From assembly GCA_902399975.1 (NCBI GenBank), contig CABOHA010000005.1:1-64000 (forward strand): 64,000 bases of DNA, read 5' to 3'. The notes under the pieces were generated by a model. That model was not told the origin of the DNA, searched no databases, and saw only the letters and a list, made by a program, of their open reading frames with translations. How positions within the stretch are numbered: the first letter of the stretch is position 1; every line of letters begins with the position of its first letter. Source of the stretch: Coriobacteriaceae bacterium. GTDB taxonomy: Bacteria; Actinomycetota; Coriobacteriia; Coriobacteriales; Coriobacteriaceae. Below, piece by piece: positions 21,092-39,897 of this stretch. A program made the position numbers and the translations under genes.

Positions 21092-21399
21092 ATCCACATT
21101 GGTATGATATTCATCCAGTTATCGACTCTCCCGCTGTTTATGCAAATCCTAAACAGCGGGAGAGTTTTCTTTTTGACCGCCGTCTAATGCTTTATTCAGC
21201 TACAGTAAATGCAGGGTGCCTTTATTTAACTAAAGCCATAAAATGAGTATTATTATCCGTTCATCGTATATTTCTTCACGCTCATCGAGCAAAGGCTGTT
21301 GTCGAGTGAATACTCTTTACACTTCCTTTAGGCTAGTAGATGTATTTATTAGCTGAAACTCCGTACGGTTTCGCGGGGTTTCAACAGTTGGGAGGGATT
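21092..21399. other. Intergenic region before the C69 dipeptidase
   Basis: The first part holds the terminator at 21125-21174. The remainder is AT-rich (21180-21345) and should carry the dipeptidase promoter, but no box pair stands out. A 9-bp hairpin (21354-21362 with 21373-21381, one G-T pair) lies in the leader, ten bases before the ribosome binding site. Confidence 0.5.
21125..21174 (+). terminator. Terminator of the lipid-kinase unit
   Basis: A perfect 16-bp stem (21125-21140 with 21150-21165) is followed by TTTTCTTTTT. Confidence 0.95.
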
Positions 21400-23202
21400 A
21401 TGAGGTTTACTCATCCTGTCAACACGCTCAAGAAGCTCGGCTGCGGCCTTGCGTTTGGAGCAGCGGCTATCATGGCCATGCCGACTTCGGCACTCGCCTG
21501 CACCCAGATCTACATGGGCAGCAAGCTCACGGCAGACGGCAACACGTACTACGGCCGTTCCGAGGACTTCGGTCCGCGCTACATCAAGCACTTTGGCATT
21601 GAGCCCGCACACAAGGACGGCAACGAGTACACCTCGGTCGAGTCCGGTTTTGAGTACAAGTCCAAGGGCGCAACCTACCGCTACACCTTCGTTCGCGACA
21701 ACCCCTCGCAGTGGGAAGATCGCTACGACGCATATTCCGAGGCAGGCATCAACGAGAAGGGCGTCTCCTGCTCTGCCACGTTGAGCACCTCCTATAACGA
21801 GAAGGCCGAAGAGGCCGACCCCATCACCGAGGAGACTGGCATTGGCGAATACAACTACGCCAGCGTCATTCTGGGCGAGAGTGCCACGGCCCGCGAGGGT
21901 GTCGAGCTCCTCGGCAGCCTGATTGACGAGCAGGGCGTCTGCTCCAACGACCAGATCATCATTGCCGACAACAACGAGACCTGGTTGTTTGCAGCGCTTT
22001 CCGGCCATCAGTGGATCGCCATGAGGCTCACTGACGATATCGCCTCGCTCAACCCCAACATCGGCAACCTCACCTATGACGTCGACCTCGACGACACCGA
22101 GAACTGCCTCCACTCCGAGGGCATCGAGTCTATGCCTAAGGAGAAGGGCTTTGCCGAGTACACCGACGGCAAGTTCGACGTCGCCAAGACCTACGGCGAG
22201 GAGATTGGCGAGGCCGGCATGCACCAGTGGTCGCGCTATATCCAGGGCCGCGATTACTTCATGGCTCCGCTTGCCGAGGGCACCGACTACGAGATCGTCA
22301 AGGACGAGCGCGAAGACGCTCGCGCGACGACCGGCGCCCTGGTCCACGAAATGCAGCCGCTGTTCTTTACGCCCGGCAAGTCCGACTGGAACACCTTTGA
22401 GATGATTCGTTCCTTCGCCGCTCGCGGCGAGAATGTCGCCGGCCTCAACGCCAACACCGACGGCGCCTATGCCATCGGCTCCAACCGCAACACCGAAATC
22501 CACACCTTCCAGATCCGTCACGGCATGGACCCCGAGATCGCGACCATCCAGTGGGAGATGCTATCCAACGCCGAGTTCTCCGTCGCCATCCCCCTCTATT
22601 CCGCACTGCTCACCGAGGTCAGCCCCTACTTCAGCGATCAGGATGTCTCCTTCGATCACTGCGAAGAGGAAGACGTCGTGAACAACGAGGAGCCCAAGAA
22701 CTCCATCAACTACGTCCTCATGGACATCAACACGCTCGCCTATGAGAACCGCGACCACTGCGCCGCCGGCGTCCGCGCCTATCTCGACGCCCTGCAGAAG
22801 GAACTCATCGAGCAGAACCTGACCGTCGACGAGGCCATGCAGGCCGAAGAAGGCACCGAAGCCCGCACCGCCCTGGCCAACAAGGCCGGCAAGGCTGCAA
22901 CCAAGAACACCTATGTTAAGTGCAAGGCCATGCTCGAGGAGATGCGCGACTACCTCCAGGAGGGCGATTTCTCCGAGGAGTTCGTCCCGAGTGACTACGA
23001 TGCTGACAACGACTGCCTGGTCGAGTCCATCACCTACGCCGACGAGGCCCTTTCCGATGAGGACGTGGCCGAGCCCGAGGCCGAAAAGAAAGAGGTCACC
23101 GAGGAGAAGTCCGAGGGCAACAACATGGCCGCCATGGCCGTTGGCGCCGTCGTCATCATCGGTGTCTGCGTCTACGTGATCTATCGTCGCAAGAAGGCCT
23201 AA
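21400..23202 (+). CDS. Surface-anchored C69 family dipeptidase
   Basis: A 600-residue peptidase of family C69 (PepD-like). An N-terminal signal sequence ends in SALA, and the next residue is the catalytic cysteine of CTQIYMGSKLTADG, so export and removal of the leader would expose the N-terminal nucleophile. GRSEDFGPRY, GINEKGVSCSATLS and the EYNYASVILGES region are family blocks. After an acidic Glu/Lys linker the C-terminus is a membrane helix (MAAMAVGAVVIIGVCVYVIY) and the basic RRKKA. The enzyme is thus predicted to sit on the outer face of the membrane and to cut dipeptides outside the cell. ATG 21400 follows GGAGGG. It lies upstream of the tryptophan-controlled ECF transporter, which would import the products of peptide breakdown. 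Confidence 0.9.
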   Translation: MRFTHPVNTLKKLGCGLAFGAAAIMAMPTSALACTQIYMGSKLTADGNTYYGRSEDFGPRYIKHFGIEPAHKDGNEYTSVESGFEYKSKGATYRYTFVRDNPSQWEDRYDAYSEAGINEKGVSCSATLSTSYNEKAEEADPITEETGIGEYNYASVILGESATAREGVELLGSLIDEQGVCSNDQIIIADNNETWLFAALSGHQWIAMRLTDDIASLNPNIGNLTYDVDLDDTENCLHSEGIESMPKEKGFAEYTDGKFDVAKTYGEEIGEAGMHQWSRYIQGRDYFMAPLAEGTDYEIVKDEREDARATTGALVHEMQPLFFTPGKSDWNTFEMIRSFAARGENVAGLNANTDGAYAIGSNRNTEIHTFQIRHGMDPEIATIQWEMLSNAEFSVAIPLYSALLTEVSPYFSDQDVSFDHCEEEDVVNNEEPKNSINYVLMDINTLAYENRDHCAAGVRAYLDALQKELIEQNLTVDEAMQAEEGTEARTALANKAGKAATKNTYVKCKAMLEEMRDYLQEGDFSEEFVPSDYDADNDCLVESITYADEALSDEDVAEPEAEKKEVTEEKSEGNNMAAMAVGAVVIIGVCVYVIYRRKKA

Positions 23203-23298: not shown

Positions 23299-23321
23299 GA
23301 AATCTTTTTAAAAAAGATTTC
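23299..23321 (+). other. AT-rich inverted repeat after the dipeptidase gene
   Basis: GAAATCTTTTT (23299-23309) is mirrored by its complement at 23310-23321. It may terminate the dipeptidase transcript or be part of the trp leader promoter region. Confidence 0.45.
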
Positions 23322-23339: not shown

Positions 23340-23348
23340 TGCTATAGT
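23340..23348 (+). promoter_or_regulatory. Extended -10 promoter of the trp leader
   Basis: TG-C-TATAGT at 23340-23348 is an extended -10 element about 59 bases before the leader peptide start. The -35 region is poor, as is common with extended -10 promoters. Confidence 0.55.
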
Positions 23349-23406
23349 GCAGCGCAACAGCAACTAGGTGCGACCGCGCCACGGCATCACGAAAGGAGCC
23401 ACCAAC

Positions 23407-23475
23407 ATGAAGAACACGATGAAATCTCTCAACAACTGGTGGTGGCGTGATGCGAATACGATCGGTCGACAGTGA
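23407..23475 (+). CDS. Tryptophan-rich leader peptide of the ECF operon
   Basis: A 22-residue reading frame, beginning MKNTMKSLNNWWWRD and ending NTIGRQ, follows AAAGGAG at a suitable distance. Three successive TGG codons (23437-23445) near its middle are the hallmark of a tryptophan attenuation leader. GGCGTGA, which overlaps the last Trp and next codons (23442-23448), can pair perfectly with TCACGCC (23481-23487) after the stop. An intrinsic terminator follows at 23512-23542, and then the ECF transporter genes. Ribosome stalling at the Trp codons would change which stem forms. Confidence 0.85.
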   Translation: MKNTMKSLNNWWWRDANTIGRQ

Positions 23476-23511
23476 GTCCCTCACGCCTGTTTTTGCGCTC
23501 TAGGTGATTGG

Positions 23512-23542
23512 AAGGCCTCCGGTTTCGACCGGGGGCCTTTTT
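23512..23542 (+). terminator. Attenuator terminator of the tryptophan ECF operon
   Basis: A 12-bp stem (23512-23523 with 23528-23539, one G-T pair) with a TTCG loop is followed by five T. It lies between the Trp leader peptide and the S-component gene. The region just before it (AGGTGATTGGA, about 23502-23512) can pair imperfectly with the segment after the leader stop, a candidate antiterminator. Confidence 0.85.
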
Positions 23543-23619
23543 CTATCTCGAGCCCAATCGCATTCGCATCACGCGCCTCCGCTTTTCTCTTGCAATCCCC
23601 TTCCGAAAGGATTTTCACC

Positions 23620-24192
23620 ATGTCTCAGAACACCACCGCCACCCAGCCCCGCACCGTCCAGACCGCCGACCGCGGCAAACTCGATGTCCGCGCCCTCGTC
23701 CTGCTCGCCATCCTGCTCGCCGCCGGCTTCATCCTCAACTTCACCGTCGGCAAGGCAATCTCGGGCATCTCGGGCGGCATGATCAGCCCCGAGTTCATCA
23801 TCTCGGCCTTCTGCCTCACCATCCTGGTCGTTCGCCCCAACATCGGCCAGGCGCTCGTCATTGGCCTCATCTCGGCTGCCGTAATCCAGATCACCACCAC
23901 TTCGCCGTTCATCGATTTTGCCGCCGAGGGCATCGCCGCCATGCTCATGGCCGGCATCGTCAACGGCGCCGGCAAGAACGGTCAGGTCAAGCCCGCCATC
24001 GCCATTGTCGCAACCTTCCTGACCACCTTTGTCTCCGGCGTTATCTTCATGGTCATCAAGATGGCCATGCTCGGCGTGGTTGGCGAGCTCGCCGCCGCCA
24101 TGCTGCCCGTCGTCGCCATGACCGCCGTCTTTAACGCCATTCTGGTCGGTGCCCTCTACTTGCCCATCCAGAAGGCCCTTAGGCTCAATTAA
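23620..24192 (+). CDS. ECF transporter S component, probably for tryptophan
   Basis: A 190-residue membrane protein with about six hydrophobic helices, an ECF substrate-binding (S) component. A polar N-terminus of about 25 residues precedes ALVLLAILLAAGFILNF. The downstream genes give the ATPase and T subunits of the same transporter. The substrate is inferred from the Trp-Trp-Trp leader and attenuator immediately upstream; a tryptophan-type S component (TrpP class) has been proposed in ECF surveys. ATG 23620 follows AAAGGA; the frame extends ten codons further without a site. Confidence 0.85.
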   Translation: MSQNTTATQPRTVQTADRGKLDVRALVLLAILLAAGFILNFTVGKAISGISGGMISPEFIISAFCLTILVVRPNIGQALVIGLISAAVIQITTTSPFIDFAAEGIAAMLMAGIVNGAGKNGQVKPAIAIVATFLTTFVSGVIFMVIKMAMLGVVGELAAAMLPVVAMTAVFNAILVGALYLPIQKALRLN

Positions 24193-24198
24193 CCCGCT

Positions 24199-24299
24199 CG
24201 GCTTTACGAGCCACCCCATCTTGGCGTTCATTCGTCGCTCGCGTACCCAAGTACGCTTCGCTCCTCTTTCGCGCCAACCTGGGGCCCCTCGTAAAGCCG
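24199..24299 (+). repeat. Long imperfect hairpin between the ECF S and A genes
   Basis: An outer 12-bp stem (24199-24210 with 24288-24299), a middle stem of 11 pairs in 13 (24214-24226 with 24272-24284) and a terminal GCGTAC/GTACGC stem (24241-24256) fold about 100 bases into one arm. It begins seven bases after the S-component stop. Confidence 0.7.
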
Positions 24300-24342: not shown

Positions 24343-24386
24343 TTGGGGACGTTCTTAAACGACTAGTCATGTAAGAACGTCCCCAA
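24343..24386 (+). repeat. Perfect 15-bp hairpin before the ECF ATPase gene
   Basis: 24343-24357 pairs with 24372-24386; the 14-base loop contains ACTAGT. No T run follows, and the ribosome binding site of the ATPase gene begins about six bases later. It could set the ratio of S to A/T subunits or stabilise processed mRNA. Confidence 0.7.
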
Positions 24387-24404: not shown

Positions 24405-26156
24405 ATGGAAACGATCATCAACGTCGACGATGTCTCGTTCTCCTATGGCACGCAGACCGAGCAGGCGCTCAGCCACATCTCACTCGGCGTGAACAAGGGA
24501 GATTTCATCGGCATCATCGGGTCCTCGGGCGCCGGCAAGTCCACGCTTGCCGCCTGCCTGTCGGGCGCCGTGCCCCACCACTACACCGGCACGTTCTTTG
24601 GGTCCGTCATGGTTGACGGCCACGACACCTGCGAAGCCTCGCTCACCGACGTATCGCAAATCGTCGGCAGTGTGCTGCAGGATATCGACACGCAGATGGT
24701 CGCTTCGGTCGTCGAGGACGAGATGCTCTTTGGCCTCGAGAACTTTGGCGTCCCCCATGACCAGATCGAGCAGCGCGTGAGCGAAACGCTCGAGACCGTC
24801 GGCATCAGCGACCTGCGCGACCGCGAGATCGCCACCCTCTCGGGCGGACAGAAGCAAAAGGTAGCCATCGCCGCCATCCTCGCCATGCGTCCGCGCGTCT
24901 TGGTTCTCGACGAGCCCACCGCGGCACTCGACCCTGCCAGCTCCACGCTGGTCTTCGAGACGCTGCGTGAGGCAAACCGCGCACTTGGAATCACCATCGT
25001 CGTCGTTGAGCAAAAGGTCGCCCTGCTCTCGGAGTACTGCAACCGCGTGCTCGTGCTCAACCATGGCGAAATCGCGCTGCAGGGCGAACCACACGAGGTC
25101 TTCGCGCATACCGACGAGCTCCGTGCCATCGGCGTCGACTGCCCTCGCGTCACGCGTATCTTCAATAGCCTCGAGGCCGATGGCCTGGTAAGCGGTACCC
25201 CTTGCTTGGATGTCGATGAGGCCGAGCGCCTGATTTCGGGCATCGTCGACCCCGCACGCGCGGCCAGCGAAGCCCAGGCGCCCGCCGGCTCCCCGCATGC
25301 ACCGTCGTTGCGCCCTCATGCCAAGGACGCCGAACCCGTACTCACCTTCGACCATGTTGAGTTTGCCTATCCCAATGGCGGCGCCGCCGTACACGACCTC
25401 AACCTGACGCTCTATCCCGGCGAGCTCGTGGGCATCGTCGGCCAAAACGGTGCCGGCAAGACCACGCTCACCAAGCTGCTCACAGGCCTGCTTAAGCCCG
25501 CCTCGGGCAGCGTGCGCGTCACGGGACTGGATACCGCAGCCGTTCCCACGAGCCGCATCGCCCGCGAAGTCGCAACCCTCTTCCAAAACCCCGACCGCCA
25601 GATCTGCAAGGATACCGTACTCGACGAGGTCGCTTTTGGCCTGGAGCTTGCCGGCATCGACCGTGCCGAGGCCCTGCGTCGCGCTCGACTCGTTATCGAC
25701 CGCTTTGGCCTGCCTGCCGATGAGGCACCTTTCTCGCTTTCGCGCGGCCAGCGACAAATGGTGGCGCTTGCCTCCGTCGTAGTTGTTGAGCCCAAGATCG
25801 TCGTGCTCGACGAGCCCACGAGCGGCCTTGATTACCGCGAGTGCATGACCGTCATGGAAACGGTGCGCACCATGGCCGAGCGCGGCTGCGCCGTTATCAT
25901 GGTCTGCCACGATATGGAAGTTGTTTCCGACTTTGCCGAGCGTATCGTAGTAATGGCCGACGGTCGCATCCTCGACCGCGGCCGCACGCACGAGCTATTC
26001 TCGAACATCGATCTCATGCGGCGTGCCTACGTGGAGCCTCCCCAGGTTATTGAACTCTCGCGCCGTCTGGCATCTTCCGTCTCGCCCGCTTTTGCGCAGG
26101 TGAGCGAGGTCACCGATGTCGTTCGCATTACCAAGGAGATGGTCCGCCGTGGTTAA
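24405..26156 (+). CDS. ECF transporter ATPase, two ABC domains fused (EcfA-A')
   Basis: A 583-residue protein with two complete ABC ATPase domains, the A and A' subunits of an energy-coupling factor transporter in one chain. Domain 1 (about 1-230) has IIGSSGAGKSTLAACL, the signature TLSGGQKQKVAIA and LVLDEPTAALD. Domain 2 (about 305-540) has IVGQNGAGKTTLTKLL, signature FSLSRGQRQMVALA and IVVLDEPTSGLD. The signature of domain 2 reads SRGQ in place of SGGQ. The linker is Ala/Pro-rich. The stop overlaps the T-component start. Substrate specificity comes from the S component upstream. Confidence 0.95.
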   Translation: METIINVDDVSFSYGTQTEQALSHISLGVNKGDFIGIIGSSGAGKSTLAACLSGAVPHHYTGTFFGSVMVDGHDTCEASLTDVSQIVGSVLQDIDTQMVASVVEDEMLFGLENFGVPHDQIEQRVSETLETVGISDLRDREIATLSGGQKQKVAIAAILAMRPRVLVLDEPTAALDPASSTLVFETLREANRALGITIVVVEQKVALLSEYCNRVLVLNHGEIALQGEPHEVFAHTDELRAIGVDCPRVTRIFNSLEADGLVSGTPCLDVDEAERLISGIVDPARAASEAQAPAGSPHAPSLRPHAKDAEPVLTFDHVEFAYPNGGAAVHDLNLTLYPGELVGIVGQNGAGKTTLTKLLTGLLKPASGSVRVTGLDTAAVPTSRIAREVATLFQNPDRQICKDTVLDEVAFGLELAGIDRAEALRRARLVIDRFGLPADEAPFSLSRGQRQMVALASVVVVEPKIVVLDEPTSGLDYRECMTVMETVRTMAERGCAVIMVCHDMEVVSDFAERIVVMADGRILDRGRTHELFSNIDLMRRAYVEPPQVIELSRRLASSVSPAFAQVSEVTDVVRITKEMVRRG

Positions 26157-26895
26157 CGTCATCGACTACATGCCGGGCGATACGCTGCTGCATCGCCTGA
26201 ACCCCGTCGTCAAACTGGGCCTCGCCGCCGCCATCATCGTCGGCATCTTCTTGTCCGACACCTACGTGGCGCTGCTGGGCTTTTTGGCACTCACCCTTGC
26301 GCTGGGCGCCTATGCCGGTGTCGTCGACCGTCTGTTCTCGCTGCTCAAGTTGCTGATTCCGCTCGCGCTTATCATGCTGGTGCTCCAGCTGGCCTTTATG
26401 CGCGATGGCAACGTTGTGTGGGGCTTTATCACCGACACGGGCCTCATCACAGGATCGAAGGCCTGTCTGCGCCTGCTGGGTGTGGCGTTACCGCTCATCC
26501 TCATGCTCATGGTGACCAAGCTCAACGACCTTGCCAACGCCTGCGTCGAGGTGCTGCACGTACCGTATCGCTATGCCTTCACCTTTACCACGGCGCTGCG
26601 CTTTGTGCCGGTGTTTGGTCAGGAGATGAACGCCATCATGGAAGCGCAGACCACGCGCGGCGTCGAGTACGACACCAAGAACCCTATCAAGAAGCTTAAG
26701 CTCATGTTGCCACTGTGTGTGCCGCTGCTCATCTCGAGCGTGGGCAAGACCGATGCCACGGCCTTGGCGGCAGAACAGCGCGGCTTCTATCTGCGCACGC
26801 GTGCGAGTTCGTATAAGCGCTACCCCATCAAAAGCCTGGATATCGCCGTACTCATCATCAGCATCGCCCTTATCTCCATCGGCTTCCTGTTCTAG
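26149..26895 (+). CDS. ECF transporter T component
   Basis: A 248-residue EcfT family transmembrane coupling protein. DTLLHRLNPVVKLGL is the typical start, followed by several membrane helices. The two coupling motifs that contact the ATPases are represented by AQTTRGVEY and AAEQRGFYLR. The GTG at 26149 overlaps the ATPase stop and follows AAGGAG; this gives translational coupling. With the S and A genes it makes a dedicated, not shared, ECF transporter. Confidence 0.93.
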   Translation: MVNVIDYMPGDTLLHRLNPVVKLGLAAAIIVGIFLSDTYVALLGFLALTLALGAYAGVVDRLFSLLKLLIPLALIMLVLQLAFMRDGNVVWGFITDTGLITGSKACLRLLGVALPLILMLMVTKLNDLANACVEVLHVPYRYAFTFTTALRFVPVFGQEMNAIMEAQTTRGVEYDTKNPIKKLKLMLPLCVPLLISSVGKTDATALAAEQRGFYLRTRASSYKRYPIKSLDIAVLIISIALISIGFLF

Positions 26896-37208: not shown

Positions 37209-37359
37209 AGAGGTTCCTTTCATGGGTGCGCGTCGGTTGCCATCTATTGTGCCGCAAGATTGCTACACCCTTATTTCCAGCATATCCTTGCATTTTTTAA
37301 ACGTTATATACGAATACTCTTGTTTGGTAAAGTGCAACGTGGTAGGGTCTTTACCACTT

Positions 37360-37516
37360 GATAGAGGCGCGGGCACGAAGAACCGCGGGCGAGCCGGCAG
37401 GCTTTGACCCCGTGGGGAGGCGAAACCCGCCGAACTGGGTTTTTCGGGCACGAACAACCTGGTGGGCCTGCGGGAAACACCCGCAGGACTGTCTGCAGCA
37501 ATGCGGGAGCGCTATC
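37360..37516 (+). promoter_or_regulatory. Lysine riboswitch (L-box)
   Basis: The stretch begins with GATAGAGGCGC and ends with GCGCTATC, which close the P1 helix. GGGGAGGCGAAACCC followed by GCCGAACTGGG matches the L-box core, and the arm with CCTGCGGGAAACACCCGCAGG is a clear stem-loop. It lies 71 bases before the lysA-dapA start. CGCTATCCGGA (37510-37520) can instead pair with TCTGGATAGCG (37564-37574), which runs into the GAGG of the ribosome binding region; the switch may work there. No intrinsic terminator is seen. Confidence 0.85.
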
Positions 37517-37587
37517 CGGACATTGGGTCCACGCTATGCGGATTCGATGCGCAGGTAGCGCCGTCTGGATAGCGAGGTTTACGGGAC

Positions 37588-39897
37588 ATGTCACTGACTC
37601 CCAACGAGGCATATGCGGCAAAGCAGCCGTTTGTGGACAAGGAGACGCTCGAGCATATCGTCGAGCAATTCTCCACGCCGTTTCATCTATACGACGAGGC
37701 GGGCATCCGCCGCAACATGCAAGAAGTGCGCGACGCCTTTGCATGGAACCCGGGCTTTAAGGAATACTTTGCCGTCAAGGCCAACCCCAACCCGGCGCTC
37801 ATCTCCATTCTCAACGAATACGGCTGCGGCTGCGATTGCTCGAGCTATACCGAGCTCATGATTGCCCGCTCGCTGGGCATCACGGGACACGACATCATGT
37901 TCTCGTCTAACGACACGCCAGCTGCCGACTTTGAGCTCGCCGACAAGCTGGGCGCCATCGTCAACTTTGACGACATCAGCCACATCGAGTTCTTTGAGCG
38001 CGTCGCAGGGCCCATTCCCAAGACGGTCAGCTGCCGCTTTAATCCGGGCGGCCTGTTCCAGCTCTCCAACGGCATCATGGACAACCCGGGCGACTCCAAA
38101 TATGGCATGACCACCGAGCAGCTCTTCGAGGCCTTCCGCATGCTCAAGGCCAAGGGCGCTGAGGACTTTGGCATCCACGCATTCCTTGCCAGCAACACCG
38201 TCACCAACGACTACTACCCCAAGCTTGCGCGCATCCTCTTTGAGCTTGCAGTGCGCCTGGAGCGCGAGACCGGCGCACACGTCGCCTTCATCAATCTATC
38301 CGGCGGCGTCGGCATCCCCTACCTGCCCGAGCAGCAGGCCAACGACATTCACGCCATCGGCGAGGGAGTGCACGCGGCATACGACAAGATCCTGGTTCCC
38401 GCCGGCATGGGCGATGTGGCCATCCGCACCGAGATGGGCCGCTTTATGATGGGCCCCTACGGCTGCCTGGTCACCAAGGCCATCCACGAGAAGCAAATCT
38501 ACAAGGACTATATCGGTGTCGACGCAAGCGCCGTCGATCTGATCCGCCCTGCCATGTATGGCGCCTACCACCACATTACGGTGATGGGTCAGCCGGGTGG
38601 CGCCGACAAGACTGCGGCACCCGTCACGGACACGTACGACATCACGGGCAACCTATGCGAGAACAACGATAAGTTCGCCATCGATCGCGAGCTGCCGCAT
38701 ATCGACATGGGCGACCTGCTCGTGATTCACGATACGGGTGCGCACGGCTACTCCATGGGCTACAACTACAACGGACGCCTACGCTCCGCCGAGGTCCTGC
38801 TGCGCCCCGACGGCTCGGCCGACCTCATCCGCCGCGCCGAGCGCCCGGGCGATTATTTTGCCACACTCGATGTGCTGCCGTGCGGCCGAGAGCTGCTGGC
38901 CAAGTCGCGCGCCGAAAGTGCTCGCCGTCGCGCTCAGGACGAGCGCTTGGCCGTCGCCGCCCAATGGAATAAGCGCATCCAGATCGCGGAAGCGAAGGTG
39001 AAGAACATGGATATCCGCAACCTCGAGGGCTCAATCGTCGCCCTTGTTACGCCGTTTAAAAAGGACGGCAGCGTCGACTTTGAAGCACTCGAGCGCCTTA
39101 TCGATTTCCACCTGCAAAATGGCACTGACGCCATCCTCACCCTGGGCACCACCGGAGAGAGTGCCACGATGACCGACGACGAGGACAACTCCGTTGTCGC
39201 CGCAGTTGTCAAGCAGGTTGCGGGCCGCGTCCCCGTCATCGCCGGCTCGGGCTCCAACTCCACGCAGACCATGCTCACCAAGTCGCTCACCTACCAGGGC
39301 CTGGGTGCCGATGGTCTGCTGCTCATTACCCCCTACTACAACAAGTCTAACGAAGAGGGCATCTACCAGCACTTTAAGACCGTGGCCGACGCCGTGGACA
39401 TCCCCTGCATTCTGTACAACATCCCCGGCCGCTGTGGCTGCGGTATCAGCGAGCACAACGTAGAGCGCTTGGCCGCACACCCCAACATCATGGGCATCAA
39501 GGAGGCCTCGGGCAACGTCGCCTACGCGGCCAAGATCGCCCACCTGCTGTCCGATGACTTCCGCATGTACTCGGGCGAGGACGCCCTCACCGTGCCGCTC
39601 ATGAGCCTGGGTGCCTCGGGCACCATCAGCGTGTGGGCCGATGTTCAGCCGCGGCTCGTGCACGACATGTGCCGCGCCTATCTGGACGGTGACGTGGAGC
39701 GCGCCCGCGATATCCAGATTGCCGGTCAGCCGCTCATCAACGCCCTCTTTAGCGAGGTCAACCCCATCCCCGTCAAGGAAGCGCTCGCACAGATGGGTAT
39801 GATCGAGGCAAACTACCGCATGCCGCTGTGCCCCATGGCAGACGACACACGCGCTGAACTTACCGATGCTCTGAAGGGAGCTGGTCTGCTTGATTAA
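37588..39897 (+). CDS. lysA-dapA: Fused diaminopimelate decarboxylase and dihydrodipicolinate synthase
   Basis: One uninterrupted frame of 769 codons. Residues 1 to about 470 are LysA-type PLP decarboxylase: EYFAVKANPNPALI holds the PLP lysine, FINLSGGVGIPY is the phosphate-binding loop, and the IHDTGAHGYSMGYNYNG block is C-terminal. From M474 (ATG 39007) the sequence is a complete DapA: LTLGTTGES, TPYYNKSNEEG, LYNIPGRCG and MGIKEASGN with the Schiff-base lysine. DapA condenses pyruvate with aspartate semialdehyde; LysA makes lysine from meso-DAP. The joining segment is a charged helix (KRIQIAEAKVKN), and AAGGTG lies before ATG 39007, so DapA could also be made separately. First gene of the lysine operon. 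Confidence 0.93.
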   Translation: MSLTPNEAYAAKQPFVDKETLEHIVEQFSTPFHLYDEAGIRRNMQEVRDAFAWNPGFKEYFAVKANPNPALISILNEYGCGCDCSSYTELMIARSLGITGHDIMFSSNDTPAADFELADKLGAIVNFDDISHIEFFERVAGPIPKTVSCRFNPGGLFQLSNGIMDNPGDSKYGMTTEQLFEAFRMLKAKGAEDFGIHAFLASNTVTNDYYPKLARILFELAVRLERETGAHVAFINLSGGVGIPYLPEQQANDIHAIGEGVHAAYDKILVPAGMGDVAIRTEMGRFMMGPYGCLVTKAIHEKQIYKDYIGVDASAVDLIRPAMYGAYHHITVMGQPGGADKTAAPVTDTYDITGNLCENNDKFAIDRELPHIDMGDLLVIHDTGAHGYSMGYNYNGRLRSAEVLLRPDGSADLIRRAERPGDYFATLDVLPCGRELLAKSRAESARRRAQDERLAVAAQWNKRIQIAEAKVKNMDIRNLEGSIVALVTPFKKDGSVDFEALERLIDFHLQNGTDAILTLGTTGESATMTDDEDNSVVAAVVKQVAGRVPVIAGSGSNSTQTMLTKSLTYQGLGADGLLLITPYYNKSNEEGIYQHFKTVADAVDIPCILYNIPGRCGCGISEHNVERLAAHPNIMGIKEASGNVAYAAKIAHLLSDDFRMYSGEDALTVPLMSLGASGTISVWADVQPRLVHDMCRAYLDGDVERARDIQIAGQPLINALFSEVNPIPVKEALAQMGMIEANYRMPLCPMADDTRAELTDALKGAGLLD

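Follow-up and report, generated by a model that had tools for sequence, protein, structure and literature searches.

The window analysed here is a 64,000-nt stretch of DNA from a Coriobacteriaceae bacterium (contig CABOHA010000005.1), in which we studied the leader region in front of the S-component gene of an energy-coupling factor (ECF) transporter. We propose that transcription into a probably tryptophan-specific ECF importer is attenuated here by a translating ribosome, and we predict that a shortage of charged tRNA-Trp turns the importer on; to this reading we assign a probability of about 0.87. The leader combines an open reading frame (ORF) with tandem Trp codons, led by a Shine-Dalgarno (SD) sequence, with a terminator, a covarying antiterminator and a competing Trp-codon stem. 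Directly observed are the ORF itself, its presence with constant spacing across related leaders, and the covariation of the pairings. An initial annotation had listed an extended -10 box, a 22-residue leader with three consecutive TGG codons, a 7-bp pairing between a segment overlapping these codons and the bases after the stop, and a 12-bp terminator with five T followed by the S-component gene; all of these are present (Table 1). Its view that a trp-attenuator layout stands here before a transporter also holds, with genes for a fused ECF ATPase and an EcfT-like component lying downstream of the one that encodes the S-component fold.

Conserved spacing and covarying stems of the leader

Conservation was assessed in the sequences upstream of homologous Coriobacteriales S genes, 111 regions in all (the window and 110 fetched regions; L027, cut by a contig end, was dropped before counting). 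A Trp-Trp mini-ORF was found in 102 regions, 101 of which share an identical length from the Trp codons to the stop, and 100 leaders carry TGGTGGTGG, with L085 encoding WAW; the Trp codons are thus kept in orthologous leaders. A terminator, judged by hairpin energy and T-run, follows in 101 of the 102 leaders (exception L092; under another terminator pattern L050 and L092 lack one), and no SD was found in L077 by the pattern used. The window contains a single combination of SD, ATG, in-frame TGGTGGTGG and stop, 100 first-order Markov copies of it contain none, and the RNA from 23355-23560 folds with z = -3.86 against 200 shuffles. The exact 9-mer of the extended -10 element is present in 20 of 22 non-redundant leaders of family f1, and the looser pattern TG.TA...T in 30 of 49 leaders overall.

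At least three families of the order have leaders of this type. A covariance model based on 50 leaders, run on 272 genomes of the order, matched 131, including all 58 listed f1 genomes (41 of them from the window's nearest genus). It also matched 79 of 80 named S-gene loci, a set that partly overlaps with the genome loci and includes Collinsella, Olsenella, Thermophilibacter, Tractidigestivibacter, Parafannyhessea, Enorma and Slackia isoflavoniconvertens; the one miss, L214, begins at a contig end. A weak hit without Trp codons (L142) was taken as chance, and the hits in G118 and G163 (second, weak) and a second hit in G147 were left out of examination. Some of the counts below come from leaders chosen by a strict pattern and are conditional on the motif, since the pattern demands GG[TC][CT][AG][AG]; the main counts were repeated without any motif requirement. 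The strict pattern failed in 16 of the 111 regions, eight of which still have a leader (L058, L062, L070-L072, L076 and L086 with WWW, L085 with WAW). Filtering for non-redundancy reduced 93 leaders to 49, 91 to 50 and 101 to 53, depending on the set.

With no motif required, GGTC lies exactly 18 nt past the last Trp codon in 100 of the 102 leaders, the hexamer at this site being GGTCGA in 72, GGTCAA in 16 and another in 14. The conserved CGGTCRA pairs with YYGACCG of the terminator loop and 3' arm (23463-23469 with 23525-23531 in the window), and changes on one side are compensated on the other (GGTCGA:TCGACC, GGTCAA:TTGACC, GGGTTA:TAATCC, GGGTCA:TGACCC; L058 has GGTCTA with AGACC). Five core pairs are intact in 48-49 of 49 motif-chosen non-redundant leaders and the next two in 38 and 32; at the variable position, G-U alone accounts for 20 of the 49. 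When a 9-nt piece was moved along 53 leaders chosen without the motif, its pairing with the loop region reached -10.3 to -10.6 kcal/mol at offsets 16-18, against -2.4 to -5.1 at offsets 0-10 and 20-32, and -6.9 and -9.0 at offsets 12 and 14. At offset 18 only 6 of 2000 permuted partner sets paired as well as the leaders' own, and most other offsets gave no signal. The region from segment 2 to the terminator loop folds as a composite hairpin with a mean of -24.1 kcal/mol, compared with -22.3 for the terminators, and z < -2 in 32 of 49 leaders.

This helix changes the role of the 7-bp stem noted initially. The pairing itself stands, and we assign it to the antiterminator's competitor (stem 1:2), the antiterminator having been absent from the initial annotation; the 7-bp stem as antiterminator was dropped, CGGTCRA with the terminator loop and 3' arm being the steady helix. 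We also rejected a pairing of segment 2 confined to the 5' arm of the terminator, where only GAG:CTC recurs. Stem 1:2 covaries as well: one pair alternates between U-A (14) and C-G (20), 23 changes are double-sided, and 77% of cells are paired. In permutation tests, whose statistics do not remove kinship among the sequences, stem 1:2 was equalled once in 5000 and the pairing of the post-stop arm with the spacer, the antiterminator cap, never in 5000 (47 leaders). Outside f1 the corresponding figures were 0/5000 for stem 1:2 and 26/5000 for the antiterminator core. The expected alternative stems are therefore present and covarying. A further segment around the SD, segment 0, pairs with the Trp-codon segment in a way that none of 5000 permutations equalled (48 leaders); within f1 this pairing was without signal (4634/5000). 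Three partners are possible for segment 1: segment 0, the post-stop arm and an echo further downstream, described below. The upstream GCATCACG (23384-23391) is prominent in the window's minimum-energy fold, but was rejected as it is not conserved beyond close relatives.

In the mechanism that we propose, a ribosome would load on the leader while RNA polymerase keeps transcribing. With Trp-tRNA scarce, it would stall on TGGTGGTGG and cover GGCGTGA, so that stem 1:2 could not form. Segment 2 (CGGTCRA...GAGTCC), free during the stall because it lies 18 nt downstream, could then pair with the emerging terminator 5' arm, loop and beginning of the 3' arm, and the freed post-stop arm would fold on the spacer and cap the antiterminator hairpin. 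The terminator would be pre-empted and the S gene transcribed. With plentiful Trp the ribosome would reach the stop codon and cover segment 2, and with no ribosome stem 1:2 would enclose segment 2; in either case the terminator would form. A ribosome protects a footprint of defined size, which was used for this stall and stop geometry, the geometry itself being taken from the sequence. Stalling, kinetics and the sign of the response, like the substrate, are predicted on this basis.

Several results weigh against this reading. Seven S-like genes (L099, L101, L104, L106, L108, L109 and L110) have no such leader within 480 nt upstream, and the covariance model matches them weakly if at all (E 0.046 to 0.66 for three of them); in L110 (G041) a leader precedes TrpB2 further upstream. 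Within f1, neither stem 1:2 (1651/5000) nor the antiterminator core (761/5000) was significant, probably because f1 leaders are too alike. Whole segment 2 against the terminator gave a weaker signal (154/5000), and the composite fold of the window itself reached only z = -1.1. Two of five covariation measures did not rise above shuffles (142 and 392 of 500 reached them), and in the same test the antiterminator helix showed one-sided changes with no double-sided pair. RNAalifold on 50 leaders returned the terminator alone, with neither stem 1:2 nor the antiterminator. The RNA of the stalled state, folded to its end, prefers the terminator, and antitermination must therefore act kinetically. Finally, the S protein scores 24.3 bits against the Pfam tryptophan transporter family TrpP (PF17099), a full-length match below the cut-off of 27.2.

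Leaders on other genes and the candidate substrate

Because of this sub-threshold score we call the S protein TrpP-like. PF17099 matches 6 of 11 relatives at E <= 0.001, and its label is precomputed for some proteins of 96% identity. The protein has an ECF S-component fold, with an AxxxA motif in helix 23-51 (A30-I-L-L-A34; A34 invariant and A30 in at least 90% of 37 sequences), and the AxxxA motif of S-component helix 1 has been described to bind EcfT (PMC11109136). The adjoining genes encode an ECF module (TIGR04520 459 bits, cut-off 315; CbiQ Pfam 92.9, cut-off 25), which does not reach the cobalt-specific TIGR02454 (59.7 versus 111.8). A PDB sequence search with 11 S proteins found no match. 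Compared with TrpP proteins, which share the S-component fold and the weak full-length profile match, the system described here differs by its score below the cut-off, its adjoining dedicated ECF module and its control by a leader peptide. Among proteins of this name, trpP of B. subtilis is included in the S-protein mutants named in PMC11487621, and a C. glutamicum protein also called TrpP was reported not to be a Trp transporter (PMC11995493).

Leaders of the same type precede other genes. In genus g85 (Slackia, as judged by the G256 contig), six stand before an NSS-like sodium-dependent transporter (NF037979 for the scanned L124, the other five called by eye on translations). At eleven examined loci across Coriobacteriales (L129, L130, L132-L140), a Trp-rich leader with terminator precedes TrpB2 (NCBIfam on L133, TIGR01415 at the coordinates of the others), followed at L129 (G041) and L130 (G278) by a TrpP-like ECF ORF. 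These TrpB2 leaders differ in sequence from the covariance model and apparently form a second branch of a Trp attenuator regulon. For 19 leaders (6 NSS, 11 TrpB2 and 2 distant TrpP) the own antiterminator averaged -11.9 kcal/mol, versus -8.6 for permuted partners, and none of 5000 permutations was as good, a set that leans towards the antiterminator because it was found with a model containing it; the eleven TrpB2 leaders alone likewise gave 0/5000. The pairs GGGTTA:TAATCC and GGGTCA:TGACCC belong to these 19 leaders. Poor pairing was seen in L127 (-3.7) and L135 (-4.4), with an automatically chosen loop segment, and in the TrpP leader of L125 (-7.2). Four of the six NSS leaders have their stop codon before GGTCGA and yet keep GGTCGA at the same 18-nt spacing.

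Why should these bacteria control uptake of tryptophan? Indole-3-glycerol-phosphate synthase (PF00218, trpC) was found in 57 of 272 genomes and all 14 controls, and in only one of 58 f1 genomes (G002); TrpB2 exceeded its cut-off in six of the 58. From these two, the only trp genes searched, most f1 bacteria are predicted to need imported Trp. We consider tryptophan the probable substrate of the importer, in agreement with the initial annotation, and this is supported by the leader, by the sub-threshold TrpP match and by the presence of like leaders before TrpB2 and NSS genes. The leader thereby gives a sequence-based, testable substrate to an ECF system for which there would otherwise be just a profile match below threshold. 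It also suggests that genes of uptake and salvage (TrpP-ECF, NSS and TrpB2) make up a Trp attenuator regulon, the antiterminators of which vary by compensating changes. A switch of this kind would set the Trp supply in Collinsella and related gut bacteria, and the covariance model offers a handle for finding more such leaders.

Could the attenuator be real and its importer carry something other than tryptophan, be it indole, another aromatic compound or a precursor used via TrpB2? We regard this as unlikely. TrpB2 does belong to the same regulon in some genomes and would be fed by indole, and in some genomes a paralogous second S gene follows the first; by the f1 counts, however, most of these bacteria would be unable to make Trp from indole by these enzymes, and the Pfam match, though below threshold, is to a tryptophan transporter family. 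The leaders on NSS genes also favour tryptophan, as the NSS member TnaT transports Trp and an NSS gene with a Trp T-box occurs in the Bacillus cereus group (PMC2494555).

An echo downstream of the terminator

Amid otherwise little-conserved sequence between terminator and S gene, a 16-nt element that we call the echo, CGCATCACGCGCCTCC, stands out. It is complementary to the Trp-codon segment GGTGGCGTGATGCG, at -24.1 kcal/mol in the window. Pairing of at least -18 kcal/mol strength was reached in 45 of 48 f1-type leaders (21 of 23 non-redundant); shuffled controls attained it in 105 of 460 cases, and a single one of the 26 other leaders did so. L023, L029 and L080 fall below this mark, and L082 reaches it only weakly. 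Among 22 f1 leaders the own echo pairing beat all 5000 permutations, with changed partners in L017, L021, L028 and L063, while 27 other leaders gave no signal (976/5000). The echo in Coriobacteriaceae therefore looks like a conserved, covarying cis pairing with segment 1.

As to its function, we tentatively propose a fifth segment: the echo might clamp the Trp-codon segment when no ribosome is stalled there and so provide a second, post-termination Trp check on translation or mRNA lifetime, an idea to which we give slightly less than even odds. If it works this way, it would add a new layer to the textbook mechanism, with the attenuator still being read out past the terminator. Hiding of the S-gene start by the echo found no support in silico, as the mean unpaired probability from SD to ATG was 0.56 with segment 1 free and 0.59 with it masked (23 leaders).

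The terminated leader could instead act in trans, as a small RNA that targets the read-through mRNA or other genes, just as rnTrpL acts as a trans small RNA in Sinorhizobium. The strong complementarity would suit such an action and a trp leader peptide acting in trans has been reported (PMC7298713), but we judge it improbable: the cis segment 1, at a distance of about 110 nt, would be expected to win over any copy in trans, and 10 of 16 f1 genomes contain the exact echo 13-mer a single time, at this locus. Additional sites were found in four (G014, G018, G026, G170) and none in two (G022, G033), and a reversed control pattern gave three hits in total.

An S gene 78% identical to that of the window, with leader and echo, is present at L034 (G256, Slackia isoflavoniconvertens by contig, family f2), which suggests horizontal transfer of gene, leader and echo from Coriobacteriaceae.

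Alternative mechanisms, known systems and neighbouring features

A nascent-peptide arrest of the TnaC kind, induced by Trp, would replace starvation stalling in the attenuator. The end of the peptide does look conserved (WWWRDA...GRR), but this conservation tracks the RNA: G[RQ] is mostly encoded by GGTCGA or GGTCAA, matching the terminator loop, and the four NSS leaders that end before the motif maintain its spacing. Residues between WWW and the Gly are mostly variable, and Trp induction would suit breakdown rather than import, so that we hold arrest to be very improbable. That the terminator is constitutive and the ORF a chance one, as its strength and its win in full-length folds would allow, we can practically dismiss given the conserved ORF, spacing and compensating changes.

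How does the proposed starvation-stalling attenuator relate to known ones? Escherichia coli trpL controls a biosynthetic operon. Its 1:2, 2:3 and 3:4 segment logic, with Trp codons in segment 1, recurs here, whereas segment 2 of the present leader extends its pairing into the loop and 3' arm of the terminator, and an echo is added downstream. Within the same phylum, classical attenuators were predicted on the trp operons of Corynebacterium and Streptomyces and on trpS (PMC1262725); they are alike in their two or three UGG codons, GC-rich poly-U terminator and conserved complementary triples common to antiterminator and terminator. They differ in their targets, trp biosynthesis operons and trpS, and in the triple itself (gGCC-rGCy-GGCC there, CGGTCRA:YYGACCG here), and the word 'transporter' does not occur in the text of PMC1262725.

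When the window was scanned with Rfam at gathering thresholds, nothing matched the leader and no T-box passed; a lysine riboswitch elsewhere was the sole hit. T-boxes bind tRNA directly, without a leader peptide. The Firmicutes T-boxes on NSS and other amino-acid transporters (PMC2494555) resemble the system proposed here in that tRNA-Trp charging controls a transporter. The peTrpL/rnTrpL system of Sinorhizobium meliloti (PMC7298713) is likewise a trp attenuator whose products have further targets; its leader peptide acts in trans, in contrast to a second target in the same transcript here. The parts of the open-licence PMC literature searched, PMC2965389 included, described no tryptophan transporter of the ECF or NSS type under the control of a leader-peptide attenuator. 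For this reason we suggest, judging from sequence, that a known mechanism, genuine ribosome-mediated trp attenuation, here acts on a target of a new kind, a transporter, with one added element.

Table 1 Features of the leader and transporter operon in the window.
Feature	Position	Strand	Basis
Extended -10 promoter element TGCTATAGT	23340..23348	+	sequence; family-wide 9-mer count
Leader SD AAGGAG	23393-23398	+	read from sequence
Segment 0, AAGGAG + GCCACC, complementary to Trp-codon segment	23393..23403	+	permutation test
Leader peptide ORF MKNTMKSLNNWWWRDANTIGRQ and stop, 22 codons	23407..23475 (ATG to TGA)	+	sequence, conservation
Trp codons TGGTGGTGG	23437-23445	+	read from sequence
Segment 1, TGGTGGTGG + CGTGATGCG	23437..23454	+	leader alignment
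Stem 1:2 5' arm GGCGTGA, putative anti-antiterminator	23444..23450	+	covariation
Stem 1:2 3' arm TCACGCC (post-stop arm); alternative partner is spacer inside antiterminator	23481..23487	+	covariation, folding
Segment 2 CGGTCGA...GAGTCC, antiterminator 5' side	23463..23479	+	covariation, spacing
Intrinsic terminator AAGGCCTCCGGT-TTCG-ACCGGGGGCCTT, 12-bp stem, TTCG loop, five T (hairpin 23512-23539, TTTTT 23538-23542)	23512..23542	+	sequence, folding
TCGACCG, terminator loop and 3' arm, antiterminator outer helix 3' side	23525..23531	+	covariation
Echo CGCATCACGCGCCTCC, complementary to segment 1, in read-through RNA only	23565..23580	+	covariation
S component, TrpP-like, 190 aa	23620..24192 (ATG to TAA)	+	Pfam, relatives, fold
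ECF ATPase, two fused ATPase domains, 583 aa	24405..26156	+	profile matches
EcfT-like transmembrane component (CbiQ family)	26116..26895 (ORF as listed; start may be later)	+	profile matches

Further features were seen around the operon. Directly 5' of it lies a C69-family peptidase gene (21340-23202; above the Pfam cut-off, below that of the NCBIfam dipeptidase model), and just 5' of the -10 element an A/T-rich near-perfect inverted repeat, GAAATCTTTTTAAAAAAGATTTC (23299-23321), shared with close relatives only. Between the S and ATPase genes, an inverted repeat with 28-nt arms (82% complementary) spans 24199-24299, and G001 has a near-identical copy behind its first S gene. A near-perfect spacerless inverted repeat, TTGGGGACGTTCTTAAACGACT / AGTCATGTAAGAACGTCCCCAA (24343-24386), stands just ahead of the ATPase gene; its 12-nt cores each occur once on the + strand of the window.

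A second S paralog (42-50% identical) directly follows the first in 9 of 58 genomes, G001, G018, G026 and G033 among them (an example is L017:2338-2865), and is absent from the window; no leader was found between the tandem S genes in the three gaps read. Further downstream, a lysine riboswitch aptamer (37354-37522, 78.9 bits) lies about 65 nt upstream of an ORF (37588-39897) in which, by eye, a diaminopimelate-decarboxylase-like and a dihydrodipicolinate-synthase-like part are joined.
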